Source: Williamsia serinedens
GTDB taxonomy: Bacteria > Actinomycetota > Actinomycetes > Mycobacteriales > Mycobacteriaceae
Assembly (NCBI RefSeq): GCF_024171725.1
Contig: NZ_JAMTCG010000003.1
Span: 186,001-250,000, forward strand
Direction: 5' to 3'
DNA: 64,000 nucleotides
The notes beneath the pieces were generated by a model. It saw nothing but the letters and a program-made list of their open reading frames with translations, was not told the origin of the DNA and made no database searches. Positions within the stretch are counted from its first letter, which is position 1. Each line of letters begins with the position of its first letter. A program made the translations under genes and the position numbers. Shown here one piece after another: positions 5,156-53,442 of this stretch.

Positions 5156-6159
5156 TGACACCGGTTCGTCGCCATCGCGTGGTGGTGCTGTTGCTCGCCC
5201 CGGTCGTCGGTTTCGACGCGACGATCGCCCCGCTCGTCTTCGGGGAGGCACGCGACCGCGACGGATCGCCCCTGTACGAGGTGGTCACGTGCTCCCTGGG
5301 CGGTGGGCCCGTGACCACCACGAGTGGCTACGGCATCGTTCCCGCCGGGGACCTCGACGAACTCACCACCGCGGACACGGTCGTCGTCCCCGGGACGCGG
5401 TATCCCCCCGCTCGGGAGAGGGGGACTCTCGATCCCGAGGTGGCGGCCGCGCTCGACAGCGTGCCGTCCACGGCTCGGTGGGTGTCGATCTGCACCGGCG
5501 CGTTCGTACTCGCCGCGTCCGGGCGGCTCGACGATCTCCCGGCGACGACCCACTGGCGCGCCGCCGCCGAGTTCCGGGCGCTCTTCCCACAGGTCCGGCT
5601 CGACGAGGCCGTCCTGTTCGTCGACGGTGGCGACGGAGAGTCCCGGTCGACCGGACCCTTCAGCTCCGCCGGGTTGTCCGCGGGGATCGATCTCTGTCTG
5701 CACCTGCTCCGCCTCGATCACGGGGCCGCCCTGGCGAATTCGGTTGCCCGGTATTGCGTCGTCCCGCCGGTGCGAGAGGGCGGTCAGGCACAGTTCATCA
5801 GTCACGCCGTCGTCGACCGTCCCGACGACAGCACGGCGCCGACACGCGCGTGGGCCCTGGACCACCTCGTGGAGGACCTGTCGATCCGTCGTCTGGCCGC
5901 GCACGCGCACATGAGCACACGAACGTTCAGCCGTCGCTTCCGGGCCGAGACGGGCGTGTCCCCAGGCGAGTGGGTGCGCAACCGCCGCGTCGACCGGGCG
6001 CGCGAGATGCTCGAGGCGGGTGGGGCGACCGTCGACGAGGTCGCGGCGCGGTCGGGGCTGGGCAGCGCCGACAACCTGCGTCATCACCTGCGGACAGGCA
6101 TCGGGATGTCGCCGACCGCCTACCGAAAAGCGTTCTCGCAGGTCACTGCATCCGGGTGA
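5155..6159 (+). CDS. GlxA-family AraC-type transcriptional regulator (DJ-1/PfpI + HTH)
   Basis: 334 residues. The N-terminal 200 or so form a DJ-1/PfpI-like domain: VVVLLLAPVVGFDATIAP start and the nucleophile-elbow segment SICTGAFVLAASG with Cys113. The C-terminal 100 residues are an AraC/XylS double HTH (SIRRLAAHAHMSTRTFSRRF and the RARE-type end LRHHLRTGIGMSPTAYRKAF). Such proteins sense small molecules and activate nearby genes. The ATG at 5155 was preferred to one 18 bases upstream because the operator-like repeat ends there. It diverges from an MFS gene, its probable target. A hairpin overlaps its stop codon. Confidence 0.88.
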   Translation: MTPVRRHRVVVLLLAPVVGFDATIAPLVFGEARDRDGSPLYEVVTCSLGGGPVTTTSGYGIVPAGDLDELTTADTVVVPGTRYPPARERGTLDPEVAAALDSVPSTARWVSICTGAFVLAASGRLDDLPATTHWRAAAEFRALFPQVRLDEAVLFVDGGDGESRSTGPFSSAGLSAGIDLCLHLLRLDHGAALANSVARYCVVPPVREGGQAQFISHAVVDRPDDSTAPTRAWALDHLVEDLSIRRLAAHAHMSTRTFSRRFRAETGVSPGEWVRNRRVDRAREMLEAGGATVDEVAARSGLGSADNLRHHLRTGIGMSPTAYRKAFSQVTASG

Positions 6160-6170
6160 CCTGCGAGAAC
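6132..6170. terminator. Perfect 15-bp hairpin overlapping the regulator stop codon
   Basis: GTTCTCGCAGGTCAC (6132-6146) pairs exactly with 6156-6170 around a 9-base loop; the TGA stop at 6157-6159 lies in the right arm. It separates convergent genes and has no T-run, as is common for actinobacterial terminators, so it may act in both directions. Confidence 0.7.
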
Positions 6171-6202
6171 GGGGTTGGGTTGGACGGTTCGTGCGTCAGG
6201 CG

Positions 6203-22638: not shown

Positions 22639-22651
22639 CCCGACAGACCAC

Positions 22652-22689
22652 CGACGACGGCCCACCCCGCACGGGGTGGGCCGTCGTCG
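22652..22689 (+). terminator. Strong 17-bp hairpin after the desaturase operon
   Basis: CGACGACGGCCCACCCC (22652-22668) pairs perfectly with 22673-22689 around the four-base loop GCAC. There is no T-tract, as usual in high-G+C actinobacteria. It follows the third gene of the operon by 13 bases. Confidence 0.85.
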
Positions 22690-22758
22690 TGTCCGGGTGA
22701 CCGTCCGCGGAGCCTCGTCGCGGTCCGGTTCGTCGGATCCGCCGACTACGCTCCGTCC

Positions 22759-32715: not shown

Positions 32716-32735
32716 CCCCCCGCCGCAACCGGTCA

Positions 32736-32778
32736 TCCGAGGCAGTTGTTCCCGCCCAGCGGGAAGAAATGCCTCGGA
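32736..32778 (+). terminator. Two-tier hairpin after efeB
   Basis: Outer arms TCCGAGGCA (32736-32744) and 32770-32778, inner arms TTCCCGC (32749-32755) and 32759-32765, separated by matched 4-base internal loops and closing on CCA. It lies 20 bases after efeB. Confidence 0.75.
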
Positions 32779-32809
32779 TCGACGCCGGGGACGTCGGTAG
32801 CGTGGACGT

Positions 32810-49919: not shown

Positions 49920-50945
49920 ATGACCGCGATCGCGGAGACCACGGGGATCAACACCATCGGCATGCTCGGGATCGGTGCCTACCGACCCGAGCGGGTGGTC
50001 ACCAACGACGAGATCTGCGAGAACATCGACTCGTCCGACGAGTGGATCTACACCCGCACCGGCATCAAGACCCGTCGGTTCGCCCGGCGTGACGAGGACG
50101 TCACGCAGATGGCCGTGCAGGCCGGTCGCACCGCGATCGCCAACGCGCTGCTCCAGGGCACCGACATCGACGCCGTCATCCTCGCCACCAACACCCACCT
50201 GCTGCTGACGCCCGCCGGCGCGACGAAGGTCGCCACCGAGCTCGGCGCGAACGGCGTCCCCGCGTTCGACGTGACCGTCGGGTGCGCGGGCTTCGGCTAC
50301 GGCATGGCGCTCGCGTCGGACATGGTCCGCGGCGGCAGCGCCAAGCACGTGCTGGTCATCGGCGCCGAGCAGCTGTCGGTGACGATGGACATGACCGACC
50401 GCGGCAACTGCTTCATCTTCGGTGACGGCGCCGGCGCGGTCGTCGTCGGACCGACCGAGGACCAGCAGCTCGGCCCCGTCGTCTGGGGCTCCGACGGCTC
50501 GCAGTACAACGCGATCCGCCAGGACTTCGACTGGGTGACCTTCCTCGACGGTGATCGCAAGCAGCGCCCGTTCCTCCGCATGGAGGGCACCGCCGTGTTC
50601 CGGTGGGCCGCGTTCGAGATGGGCAAGGCCGCGCAGCGAGCGCTCGAGGCCGCCAAGATCGGCGCCGAGGACCTCGACGTCTTCGTCCCCCACCAGGCCA
50701 ACGCCCGCATCAACGAGCTGCTCGCGAAGAACCTGCACCTCAAGGAGGGCACGGTCGTCGCCGACGACATCGAGTTCACCGGCAACACCTCCGCCGCTTC
50801 CATCCCGCTCGCCATGGAGAACCTGCTCTCGACCGGCCGCGCCAAGCCCGGCCAGACCGCACTCCTCCTCGGCTACGGCGCCGGCCTCAGCTACGCCGCC
50901 CAGGTCGTCAAGCTCCCCCCGATCCCCTTCGAGGGCAATCCGTAG
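49920..50945 (+). CDS. 3-oxoacyl-ACP synthase III (FabH-like) paralogue 2
   Basis: 341 residues. Triad Cys122 ([10 protein letters not shown]), His258 ([10 protein letters not shown]) and Asn289 (TGNTSAAS). Its N-terminal 60 residues and the dimer-helix regions closely track paralogue 1, for example MLGIGAYRP and [15 protein letters not shown] precedes ATG 49920, and 109 bases separate it from paralogue 1. Its TAG stop (50943-50945) lies inside the first copy of the 39-nt hairpin repeat, which suggests the hairpin inserted at, and now supplies, the end of the gene. Confidence 0.93.
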
Positions 50946-50979
50946 CAGTTCGTGTCGCCTGGCGACACAAAGCGCTACG
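50941..50979. repeat. 39-nt hairpin repeat, copy 1 (imperfect)
   Basis: Starts CGTAGCAGTTCGTGTCG and is 39 bases long. It agrees with copy 2 at 34 of 39 positions; the differences sit in the loop and right arm, so its pairing is imperfect. Bases 3-5 form the TAG stop of FabH paralogue 2. The DUF559 gene starts eight bases after it. Confidence 0.85.
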
Positions 50980-50986
50980 GCTCGGG

Positions 50987-51790
50987 ATGACGGACCCGAT
51001 CCGCTCGGCGGTGCGGCGACGCGTGACTTCCGGAGAATGGCGGCATGTGGGGCGCGGCGTCTACTTCGTCGCAGACCGCCGGATGACCGACCGGGCACGA
51101 ATTCGGATCAAGCGGGCCGATGTCGGCGTCCGAGCTGTCGTCTCGGGGGCATCTGCCGCGTGGTGGTTTCGCATGCTCGACCGCGCCCCGAGTCCGGTCA
51201 CCGTGTGCGCGCCTCGAGGACGCCACGGATCCCGCCTCGACGGTGTTGCCGTCGTCCACCGCGACCTCGACCCCGCCGATGTCGTGACAGTCGATGGTCT
51301 GCCCATCGTGTCCAAGGCTCTCGCCGCGCTCGAGGCCTCGGTCACCCATGGTGCCGGGGTATTGGACACCGCGTTGCAGCGACGCATGGTCACCCTCGAC
51401 GAGGTGATCGCGACGAACGACAGGTACCCGGGCCGTACCGGTGCGCCGCGCGCCTCAGCGATCATCGCCGCCTGTGCCACCGGCGCGCGCTCACAAGCTG
51501 AGCGCCTCGCACACCGACTGCTGCGCGAGGCCGGCATATCCGGGTGGACGGCCAACGCCGCCGCATCCGGGTACGAGGGCGACATCCTCTTCGAGGCCGC
51601 ACGTGTACTCGTCGAAATCGACGGGTTCGCGTTCCATTCCGCGGCCTCCGACTTCCAGCGTGACCGGACGCGGCAGAACGCGCTCGTGGCCGCTGGATGG
51701 ACCGTGCTGCGATTCACCTGGGCCGACCTCACCGAGCGTCCTGGCCATGTCGTCGCCATGATCAGCCACGCTCTTCGTCGGGCTGCGTAG
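50987..51790 (+). CDS. AbiEi-like N-terminus fused to DUF559 (Vsr-fold nuclease-like) domain
   Basis: 267 residues. Residues 5-30 (IRSAVRRRVTSGEWRHVGRG) resemble the wHTH start of AbiEi-type antitoxins; the middle region is of the AbiEi C-terminal type. The C-terminal DUF559 domain keeps a PD-(D/E)xK arrangement: Glu172 (SQAERL), Asp199 (YEGDI), Glu210 and Asp212 (LVEIDGFAFH) and Asn231 (RQNALVAAGW). A cytotoxin or DNA-repair role is often suggested. ATG 50987 with weak GGCTCGGG upstream. Both ends are bordered by the hairpin repeat, and its TAG stop is in copy 2. Confidence 0.83.
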   Translation: MTDPIRSAVRRRVTSGEWRHVGRGVYFVADRRMTDRARIRIKRADVGVRAVVSGASAAWWFRMLDRAPSPVTVCAPRGRHGSRLDGVAVVHRDLDPADVVTVDGLPIVSKALAALEASVTHGAGVLDTALQRRMVTLDEVIATNDRYPGRTGAPRASAIIAACATGARSQAERLAHRLLREAGISGWTANAAASGYEGDILFEAARVLVEIDGFAFHSAASDFQRDRTRQNALVAAGWTVLRFTWADLTERPGHVVAMISHALRRAA

Positions 51791-51824
51791 CAGTTCGTGT
51801 CGTGTGGCGACACGAACTGCTACG
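51786..51824. repeat. 39-nt hairpin repeat, copy 2 (perfect 17-bp stem)
   Basis: CGTAGCAGTTCGTGTCG (51786-51802) pairs perfectly with 51808-51824 around TGTGG. Bases 3-5 (51788-51790) are the TAG stop of the DUF559 gene, at the same place within the element as in copy 1. It can also act as a terminator before prfC. Confidence 0.88.
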
Positions 51825-51858
51825 GATTCGCGAAACGGGCGTCGAGTATCGTGTTGCG

Positions 51859-53442
51859 GTGAGTTCTGAAGCCATCGCACGTGAGGTGGCACGTCGTCGC
51901 ACCTTCGCGATCATCTCCCACCCCGACGCGGGCAAGTCGACGATGACCGAGGCGTTGGCGTTGCACGCCAGGGTGATCGGCGAGGCCGGCGCGATCCACG
52001 GCAAGGCAGGGCGCAAGTCGACGGTCTCCGACTGGATGGAGATGGAGAAGGCCCGCGGGATCTCCGTCAGCTCCACGGCACTGCAGTTCACCTACGGCGA
52101 CGCCGTCATCAACCTCGTCGACACCCCCGGCCACGCCGACTTCTCCGAGGACACCTACCGGGTGCTCACCGCGGTCGACGCCGCGGTGATGCTCATCGAC
52201 GCCGCCAAGGGCCTGGAGCCGCAGACGCTCAAGCTGTTCCAGGTCTGCCGCCACCGCGGGATCCCCGTCATCACGGTCATCAACAAGTGGGACCGTCCCG
52301 GCCGCACACCGCTGGAGCTGATCGACGAGATCGCCGAGCGCATCGGGCTGACGCCGACGCCGCTGTTCTTCCCGGTCGGCATCGCGGGCGACTTCCGCGG
52401 TCTGCTGGACCGTCGCGAGGGCTCGTACGTCCGCTTCACCCGCACCGCCGGTGGCGCCACGATCGCCCCCGAGGAACTGATGTCGGCCGACGCCGCGCAG
52501 GACCGCGAGGGCGACGAGTGGACCGCAGCGGTCGAGGAGTCCGAGCTGCTCACCGAGATGGGCCAGGACCACGACCAGGAACTGTTCCTCGCCGGCGAGA
52601 CGTCGCCGATGATCTTCGCCTCGGCGATGCTCAACTTCGGTGTGCGACAGCTGCTCGACACCCTCGTCGAGCTCGCTCCCCCGCCCGCGGGCCGCGAATC
52701 CGTCGACCACGTGACCCGCGAGGTCACCGACCCGTTCTCTGCGGTCGTGTTCAAGGTGCAGGCAGGCATGGACGCCTCCCACCGCGACCGGCTGGCGTTC
52801 ATGCGCATCGTGTCCGGCGAGTTCGAACGCGGCATGGTCGTCACCCACGCGCAGACCGGCAAACCGTTCGCGACGAAGTACGCGCAGGCCGTCTTCGGCC
52901 GTGACCGCGCCACCGTCGACACCGCCTACCCCGGCGACGTCGTCGGCCTCGTCAACGCGATGACCCTGGCGCCCGGCGACACCCTCTACACCGACCCCTC
53001 GGTCGAGTACCCGCCGATCCCGTCGTTCGCGCCCGAGCACTTCGCGGTGCTGCGCGCCGACAGTGCGGGCAAGTACAAGCAGTTCCGCAAGGGGATGGAC
53101 CAGCTCGACTCCGAGGGCGTGGTGCAGGTGCTCCGCAACGACCTACGCGGTGACGCCTCACCGGTCCTCGCCGCGGTCGGCCCGATGCAGTTCGAAGTCG
53201 TCACCGCCCGCCTCAAGGCCGAGTTCGGCGTCGACACGTCGGTGGAGTTCCTCGGGTTCTCGCTGGCCCGGCGGACCGACGAGGACAGCGCGTCCGAACT
53301 CGACCGCCAGCGTGGGGTCGAGGTGTTCACCCGCAGCGACGGCGTCCGACTGGCCCTGGTCAGCGACAAGTGGCGGCTGCAGTACATCGAGAAGGAACAC
53401 CCGGACCTGACGCTGGAACCGCTCGTTGCGACCGCGGACTAG
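51859..53442 (+). CDS. prfC: Peptide chain release factor 3
   Basis: 527 residues. GTPase G1 loop HPDAGKST (21-28), G3 in VDTPGHADFSED, G4 NKWDRPGRTP, then RF3-specific segments such as RKSTVSDWMEMEKARGISV. Releases RF1/RF2 from the ribosome after termination. GTG 51859 is supported by TATCGT (51847-51852), which would place transcription start at the GTG, giving a leaderless message. It starts 34 bases after the hairpin copy 2. RF3 has a patchy distribution in actinobacteria. Confidence 0.96.
   Translation: MSSEAIAREVARRRTFAIISHPDAGKSTMTEALALHARVIGEAGAIHGKAGRKSTVSDWMEMEKARGISVSSTALQFTYGDAVINLVDTPGHADFSEDTYRVLTAVDAAVMLIDAAKGLEPQTLKLFQVCRHRGIPVITVINKWDRPGRTPLELIDEIAERIGLTPTPLFFPVGIAGDFRGLLDRREGSYVRFTRTAGGATIAPEELMSADAAQDREGDEWTAAVEESELLTEMGQDHDQELFLAGETSPMIFASAMLNFGVRQLLDTLVELAPPPAGRESVDHVTREVTDPFSAVVFKVQAGMDASHRDRLAFMRIVSGEFERGMVVTHAQTGKPFATKYAQAVFGRDRATVDTAYPGDVVGLVNAMTLAPGDTLYTDPSVEYPPIPSFAPEHFAVLRADSAGKYKQFRKGMDQLDSEGVVQVLRNDLRGDASPVLAAVGPMQFEVVTARLKAEFGVDTSVEFLGFSLARRTDEDSASELDRQRGVEVFTRSDGVRLALVSDKWRLQYIEKEHPDLTLEPLVATAD

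Follow-up and report, generated by a model that had tools for sequence, protein, structure and literature searches.

Among described systems, the closest to the arrangement reported here are the repetitive extragenic palindromes (REPs) and their REP-associated tyrosine transposase (RAYT) genes. As set out in one account, RAYT genes have two flanking REPs, are less conserved than their neighbours and have palindromes that change but stay paired, and REPs usually exceed 100 copies per genome (PMC2817692); a second account places REPs downstream of genes (PMC3733652). Some families of bacterial palindromic repeats are described by Di Nocera et al. as having no known driver. Here, we analysed a 64,000-nucleotide stretch of the Williamsia serinedens genome (contig NZ_JAMTCG010000003.1, positions 186,001 to 250,000; hereafter the window), in which a gene encoding a DUF559 protein lies between two copies of a palindrome, and compared it with seven other Williamsia genomes and with homologous loci in further genera. 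As judged by comparing these sequences, related species can have, at one and the same chromosomal site, units that differ in kind and in orientation, or a lone palindrome. On balance, we favour the reading that palindrome, gene and palindrome together make up a small unit, mobile now or in the past, that encodes a nuclease, for which we propose homing-type copying at palindromes.

The unit resembles the RAYT/REP systems in several respects: a gene lies between two palindromes, each genome holds few such genes and several lone palindromes, the flanking palindromes vary yet pair, and the gene is less conserved than its neighbours. It differs in its protein (an AbiEi part joined to a Vsr-like nuclease, with no transposase domain found), in copy number (approximately 16 palindromes in the window's genome, compared with more than 100 REP copies) and in showing no unpaired GTAG tag, the GTAG seen here sitting within the stem. 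An earlier first-pass annotation, made from the window's letters alone, had suggested insertion or duplication at the hairpin, similar in outline to REP elements and their RAYT partner, with a Vsr-fold protein; our results support that outline, the exception being that a search for a tyrosine transposase domain found none. The Vsr-like EDxHD catalytic domain is shared with the homing endonuclease I-Bth0305I, but the present unit has no noticed intron or intein, leaves its target uninterrupted, carries an AbiEi-like DNA-binding region and encodes a protein unmatched in 50,697 phage records. Similarly, the AbiEi-type antitoxin fold recalls the AbiE (type IV toxin–antitoxin) systems, but here it is fused to a nuclease, and the window neighbours are FabH and release factor 3, with no adjacent AbiEii nucleotidyltransferase toxin. 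Unlike Vsr mismatch endonucleases and DUF559 proteins as otherwise described, the present nuclease is fused to a DNA-binding part and its gene is flanked by palindromes. A literature search, which left out most subscription papers, found none joining DUF559 with such palindromes; two that contain both terms appear to concern CRISPR/secretion in Aliivibrio and NAD metabolism.

Within the window, the two repeats (50941-50980 and 51786-51825) are direct copies with 88% identity across 40 nt, spaced 845 bp apart, and the second folds into a perfect 17-nt stem closed by a 5-nt loop. From the coordinates of the open reading frame (ORF) list, each supplies the TAG stop of the gene to its left (FabH paralogue 2, FabH-2, at 50943-50945; the DUF559 gene at 51788-51790). 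The first-pass annotation had described all three features (two 39-nt elements bordering the gene, the perfect stem of the second copy and the paired stop codons), and each was confirmed. Allowing up to three mismatches, a 15-nt arm of the palindrome matched the window in 7 places, against 1.95 expected and a maximum of 6 in 100 shuffles.

Two variable sites could be read in several Williamsia species. Between fabH and prfC (readable in 8 of 8 Williamsia genomes), the gene stands between two palindromes in five genomes, and a single palindrome without the gene is present in the other three (G001, G004 and G007, all with the same palindrome kind as the window, type A, which has a CGTGTCG core). 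The five occupied sites include both gene orientations and four palindrome kinds: the gene is on the plus strand with type A palindromes on either side in the window's genome (G000, a 4.64-Mb draft), on the minus strand within palindromes of three further kinds in G005, G006 and G002, and truncated, also on the minus strand, within type A-like palindromes in G003. Among the seven relatives, G005 has the prfC protein most like that of G000 (97%), and the prfC genes of the two are 91.9% identical in DNA; their DUF559 genes at this site share only 65.8% DNA and 58% protein identity. Replacement of one unit by another is a simpler explanation of this divergence than fast evolution combined with inversion, possible in principle as the latter may be. 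The last codons and stop of FabH-2 in G000 and G005 appear to be derived from the palindrome. At two loci (L069 in G003 and L071 in G007), the gene preceding the palindrome is more like FabH paralogue 1 than paralogue 2, and FabH copy number may differ. For other genera, eight fabH–prfC loci (L073-L080) were read of 22 fetched; one (L073, from G013) has a different long hairpin at approximately 1270-1360, where Williamsia has its palindromes, and another (L076) has no hairpin between fabH and prfC.

A second site, between an SDR gene and a DUF6297 gene, repeats the pattern: the gene is present in three of the four comparable Williamsia genomes and a lone palindrome in the fourth. Comparison was limited to these four because G002 had no SDR match at threshold and, in G000, G005 and G006, the SDR match reached 60-62% identity, with no alignment of the adjacent DNA. 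In G001 and G007, the gene is on the same strand as the SDR gene, with type A palindromes on both sides; in G004, it is on the opposite strand, within palindromes that have other arms and a TTCCCGC core; and in G003, a type A-like palindrome stands alone. G001 and G004 share 91.5% identity in the SDR gene and 67.5% in the DUF559 gene. The empty-site comparison proposed in the first-pass annotation thus yielded two sites at which some genomes have hairpin, gene and hairpin and others one hairpin alone.

The association extends well beyond Williamsia. A five-protein profile search recovered 9 genes in the 8 Williamsia genomes and relatives in 95 stretches from named genomes; among the best 80 of these 95, which were retained, 26 were from Gordonia (with at least four relatives of the gene in G. 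alkanivorans) and others from Rhodococcus, Mycobacterium, Hoyosella, Antrihabitans, Lolliginicoccus, Smaragdicoccus, Pseudonocardia and more. Flanks were tested at 57 loci (54 of the best 80 plus three from Williamsia; L166 and L167 are the same, so 56 are distinct), with L165, which ends at the gene, and L175-L199, which are partial, weaker matches, left out. A repeat shared by the upstream and downstream flanks, with a score of at least 30, was found at 49 of the 57 loci, compared with 3 of 75 control ORFs (long mechanical ORFs rather than curated genes) and 5.3% of 1400 cross-locus comparisons. The repeat was also clearly palindromic at 43 of the 57, to which the window (L115), L133 and L139 add three seen by other means; the script used for the flanks did not register the pair in the window, as the hairpin there abuts the start of the gene. 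The palindromes of a pair match within a locus and mostly differ between loci. In several genera, the same gene family lies between matched palindromes whose sequences are unrelated, and the two palindromes of one unit may diverge in both arms without loss of pairing (for example, L126 and L150). Lone copies and remnants were seen here too. The 17-nt arm of one Gordonia palindrome occurs exactly in five of six Gordonia genomes; in G. alkanivorans, seven places have both arms of one unit's palindrome, two of them flanking the gene (two single-arm matches uncounted); and at the site of a G. alkanivorans unit, G. paraffinivorans has kept both palindromes with the gene mostly deleted. A phage origin was rejected (no match to the protein in the phage records), and so was a plasmid origin (matches in 7 of 72,556 plasmid records, one with at least 80% query coverage). 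One relative of the protein, with 42% identity, is encoded on a Tsukamurella plasmid (NZ_LR134454.1, 121950-122726).

The window gene product is a DUF559/MTES_1575 protein with AbiEi similarity, approximately 22 residues short in its N-terminal helix-turn-helix compared with relatives, of which the W. maris and Williamsia sp. CHRR-6 copies are intact. Its predicted fold joins an AbiEi-like DNA-binding antitoxin to an I-Bth0305I/Vsr-like nuclease, with both the AbiEi-type antitoxin fold and the Vsr-like EDxHD catalytic domain recognised. Six residues are invariant in all 43 aligned proteins (E172, D199, E210, D212, H217 and D226, window protein numbering). Likewise, E195, D222, H240 and D249 (L124 numbering) are present in 43 of 43 members, and we take these four to be the EDxHD motif residues. 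A Pfam scan of the 43 members returned MTES_1575, DUF559, AbiEi models and Vsr, plus one chance match, and no transposase model (including Y1/HUH tyrosine, IS200/IS605-like). The gene is under purifying selection, and there is weak likeness to anti-phage proteins at the domain level.

Copies of the palindrome are scattered through the window's genome, which has 16 of two related kinds with similar outer arms: 5 of type A and 11 of type B, with a TTCCCGC-like core (a count that leaves out three core matches pairing at only 8, 15 and 10 of 25). Two of the 16 flank the DUF559 gene and 14 lie elsewhere. Palindromes of 41 nt listed across the Williamsia loci included unrelated hairpins and do not enter these counts. 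Allowing up to three mismatches across 61 genomes, type A was found in 6 of the 8 Williamsia genomes (G000 and five others) and in none of the 53 others, and a reversed control pattern matched nowhere; the type B core occurs in all 8 Williamsia genomes, in 1 to 10 places each (control, 0). The element recorded in the first-pass annotation therefore does have further copies, both in this genome and in relatives. Proximity of DUF559 genes to it, which that annotation had raised as a check, was seen in part: members of the clade are flanked by matched repeats at the 49 loci described above, whereas only the window gene, among 8 DUF559-like matches in G000, stands among type A or B palindromes, the next nearest being approximately 9 kb away. 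One of the other seven, a distant second DUF559-like gene (L034; G000:C3:331695-335240), has its own pair of 60-bp palindromes (at 948-1008 and 2111-2171), outside which there are short repeats in inverted orientation. Lone palindromes also change between species. At the site of the lone palindrome at 32735, G000 has type B and G004 has type A, while G005 has four in tandem compared with one in G000 (L256, approximately 1395-1650; flanks 90% and 88% identical); L064 and L107 likewise differ in kind, and between L055 and L105 a second palindrome is stacked next to the first.

Under the homing-type proposal, a protein dimer would recognise the double-stranded palindrome and cut lone copies, and repair of the break from a palindrome-flanked copy would copy the gene into the space between two half-palindromes, whose symmetry would allow either orientation. 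Later recombination between the flanking palindromes could delete the gene and leave a lone palindrome, which would be a target again. A dimer would suit a palindrome of 40–60 bp: AbiEi binds 23-bp inverted repeats (PMC7319586), and I-Bth0305I is said to form a dimer on nearly 60 bp of DNA (PMC3943268). Binding or cutting of the palindrome by the protein is something we infer from sequence, as the first-pass annotation did for the relationship between protein and hairpin. Several observations weigh against this proposal. A classic homing site is destroyed by its insert, but at the sites read the palindromes on both sides of the gene are complete. Among the 57 loci, 8 had no repeat above threshold, two of which (L115 and L139) have a pair by other means. 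For some palindrome kinds, no matching gene was found in the same genome (the TTCCCGC kind in G000; one kind in G. amicalis, which has five such palindromes, with three single-arm matches uncounted, though none of the at least three units found is of that kind). Similarity of proteins correlated weakly with similarity of palindromes across 40 units (Mantel rho 0.14, reached in 6 of 2000 permutations), and not significantly once pairs with shared flanks were removed (rho 0.06, P = 0.09); on this basis, the idea that protein and palindrome simply diverge together across loci was rejected. In addition, several Gordonia units occupy one site in several species, that is, movement is rare. Finally, the palindromes can hold genes other than that of the nuclease: in G000, an OmdA-family gene lies between two type B palindromes (L227 1740-2287; G000:C4:175829-176376) at a place where only one is present in G005 and in G006. 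One of the two in G000 supplies the stop codon of the OmdA gene, and the duplicated stretch takes in approximately ten bases of host flank.

The OmdA site, together with the palindrome kinds for which no matching gene was found, is what would be expected if another agent spread the palindromes and the nuclease gene were one of several passengers, gained and lost via ordinary recombination between 40-bp repeats; we rate this lowest among the alternatives, as distinctly improbable, given that chance passengers would not be expected to recur, as this gene family does in several genera, between matched palindromes that are unrelated in sequence. A different possibility is an autoregulated defence or toxin-type gene, with the AbiEi part binding the upstream palindrome as an operator and the downstream palindrome terminating transcription, with no movement by the action of the protein. 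AbiEi proteins do autoregulate via inverted repeats (PMC7319586), and the domain-level likeness to anti-phage proteins and the purifying selection would fit. The positions of the palindromes do not suggest promoter operators: the genes on both sides could be called at 26 of 35 palindrome loci (by a rough rule based on base composition at third codon positions, GC3, and with some loci representing the same site in different species), and these 26 comprised 16 tandem, 9 convergent and 1 divergent arrangement. Moreover, the window unit does not adjoin an AbiEii toxin; the hairpins were rejected as T-tract terminators, none being present within 50700-52000; and sites with a palindrome but no gene, as well as the exchange of units, would be unexplained. 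We therefore regard autoregulation as unlikely, while placing it first among the alternatives.

True transposition, in which the protein would excise and insert palindrome-ended DNA, with the palindromes as terminal repeats and lone ones as non-autonomous copies, as proposed for RAYTs and REPs, is a further alternative. The layout is that of RAYT units as described in PMC2817692, both arms change in pairs here (for example, L126 and L150), and some palindromes stand close together as pairs or, as in G005, in a series of four against one in G000. Against these stand the 43 members in which the Pfam scan found no transposase domain and the sites read, at which no constant short target duplication was seen by eye (no systematic test was made), and we consider transposition improbable, ranking it between the other two.

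If the homing-type proposal is correct, a driver based on a nuclease would represent a novel route by which palindromic repeats are made and spread, a function would be suggested for AbiEi-bearing DUF559 proteins, and the enzyme would be a simple, testable palindrome cutter. A broader idea, which we hold tentatively and a little short of endorsing, is that these units represent a second, independent REP-type solution across the Mycobacteriales: a selfish or domesticated element with a homing-type nuclease and an antitoxin-derived DNA-binding part, which would use perfect palindromes as portable targets, copy itself between half-palindromes and seed lone palindromes.

Table 1 Features of the palindrome-flanked unit and related elements in the window.
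Feature	Position	Strand	Remarks
Left palindrome	50941..50980	.	Type A, CGTGTCG core; imperfect, still folds; contains FabH-2 TAG stop
Right palindrome	51783..51827	.	Perfect 17-nt stem in core; contains DUF559-gene TAG stop
AbiEi-DUF559 (Vsr-like nuclease) gene	50987..51790	+	267 aa
FabH paralogue 2 (left host gene)	49920..50945	+	C-terminus extends into palindrome
prfC, peptide chain release factor 3 (right host gene)	51859..53442	+	
Lone type B palindrome	32735..32779	.	TTCCCGC core; no adjoining DUF559 gene

Membership of the hairpins in a known RNA family was rejected, a single match, below threshold, being all that 50800-51950 returned. Two further strong hairpins of unrelated sequence are present in the window, at 6130-6172 and 22650-22691.
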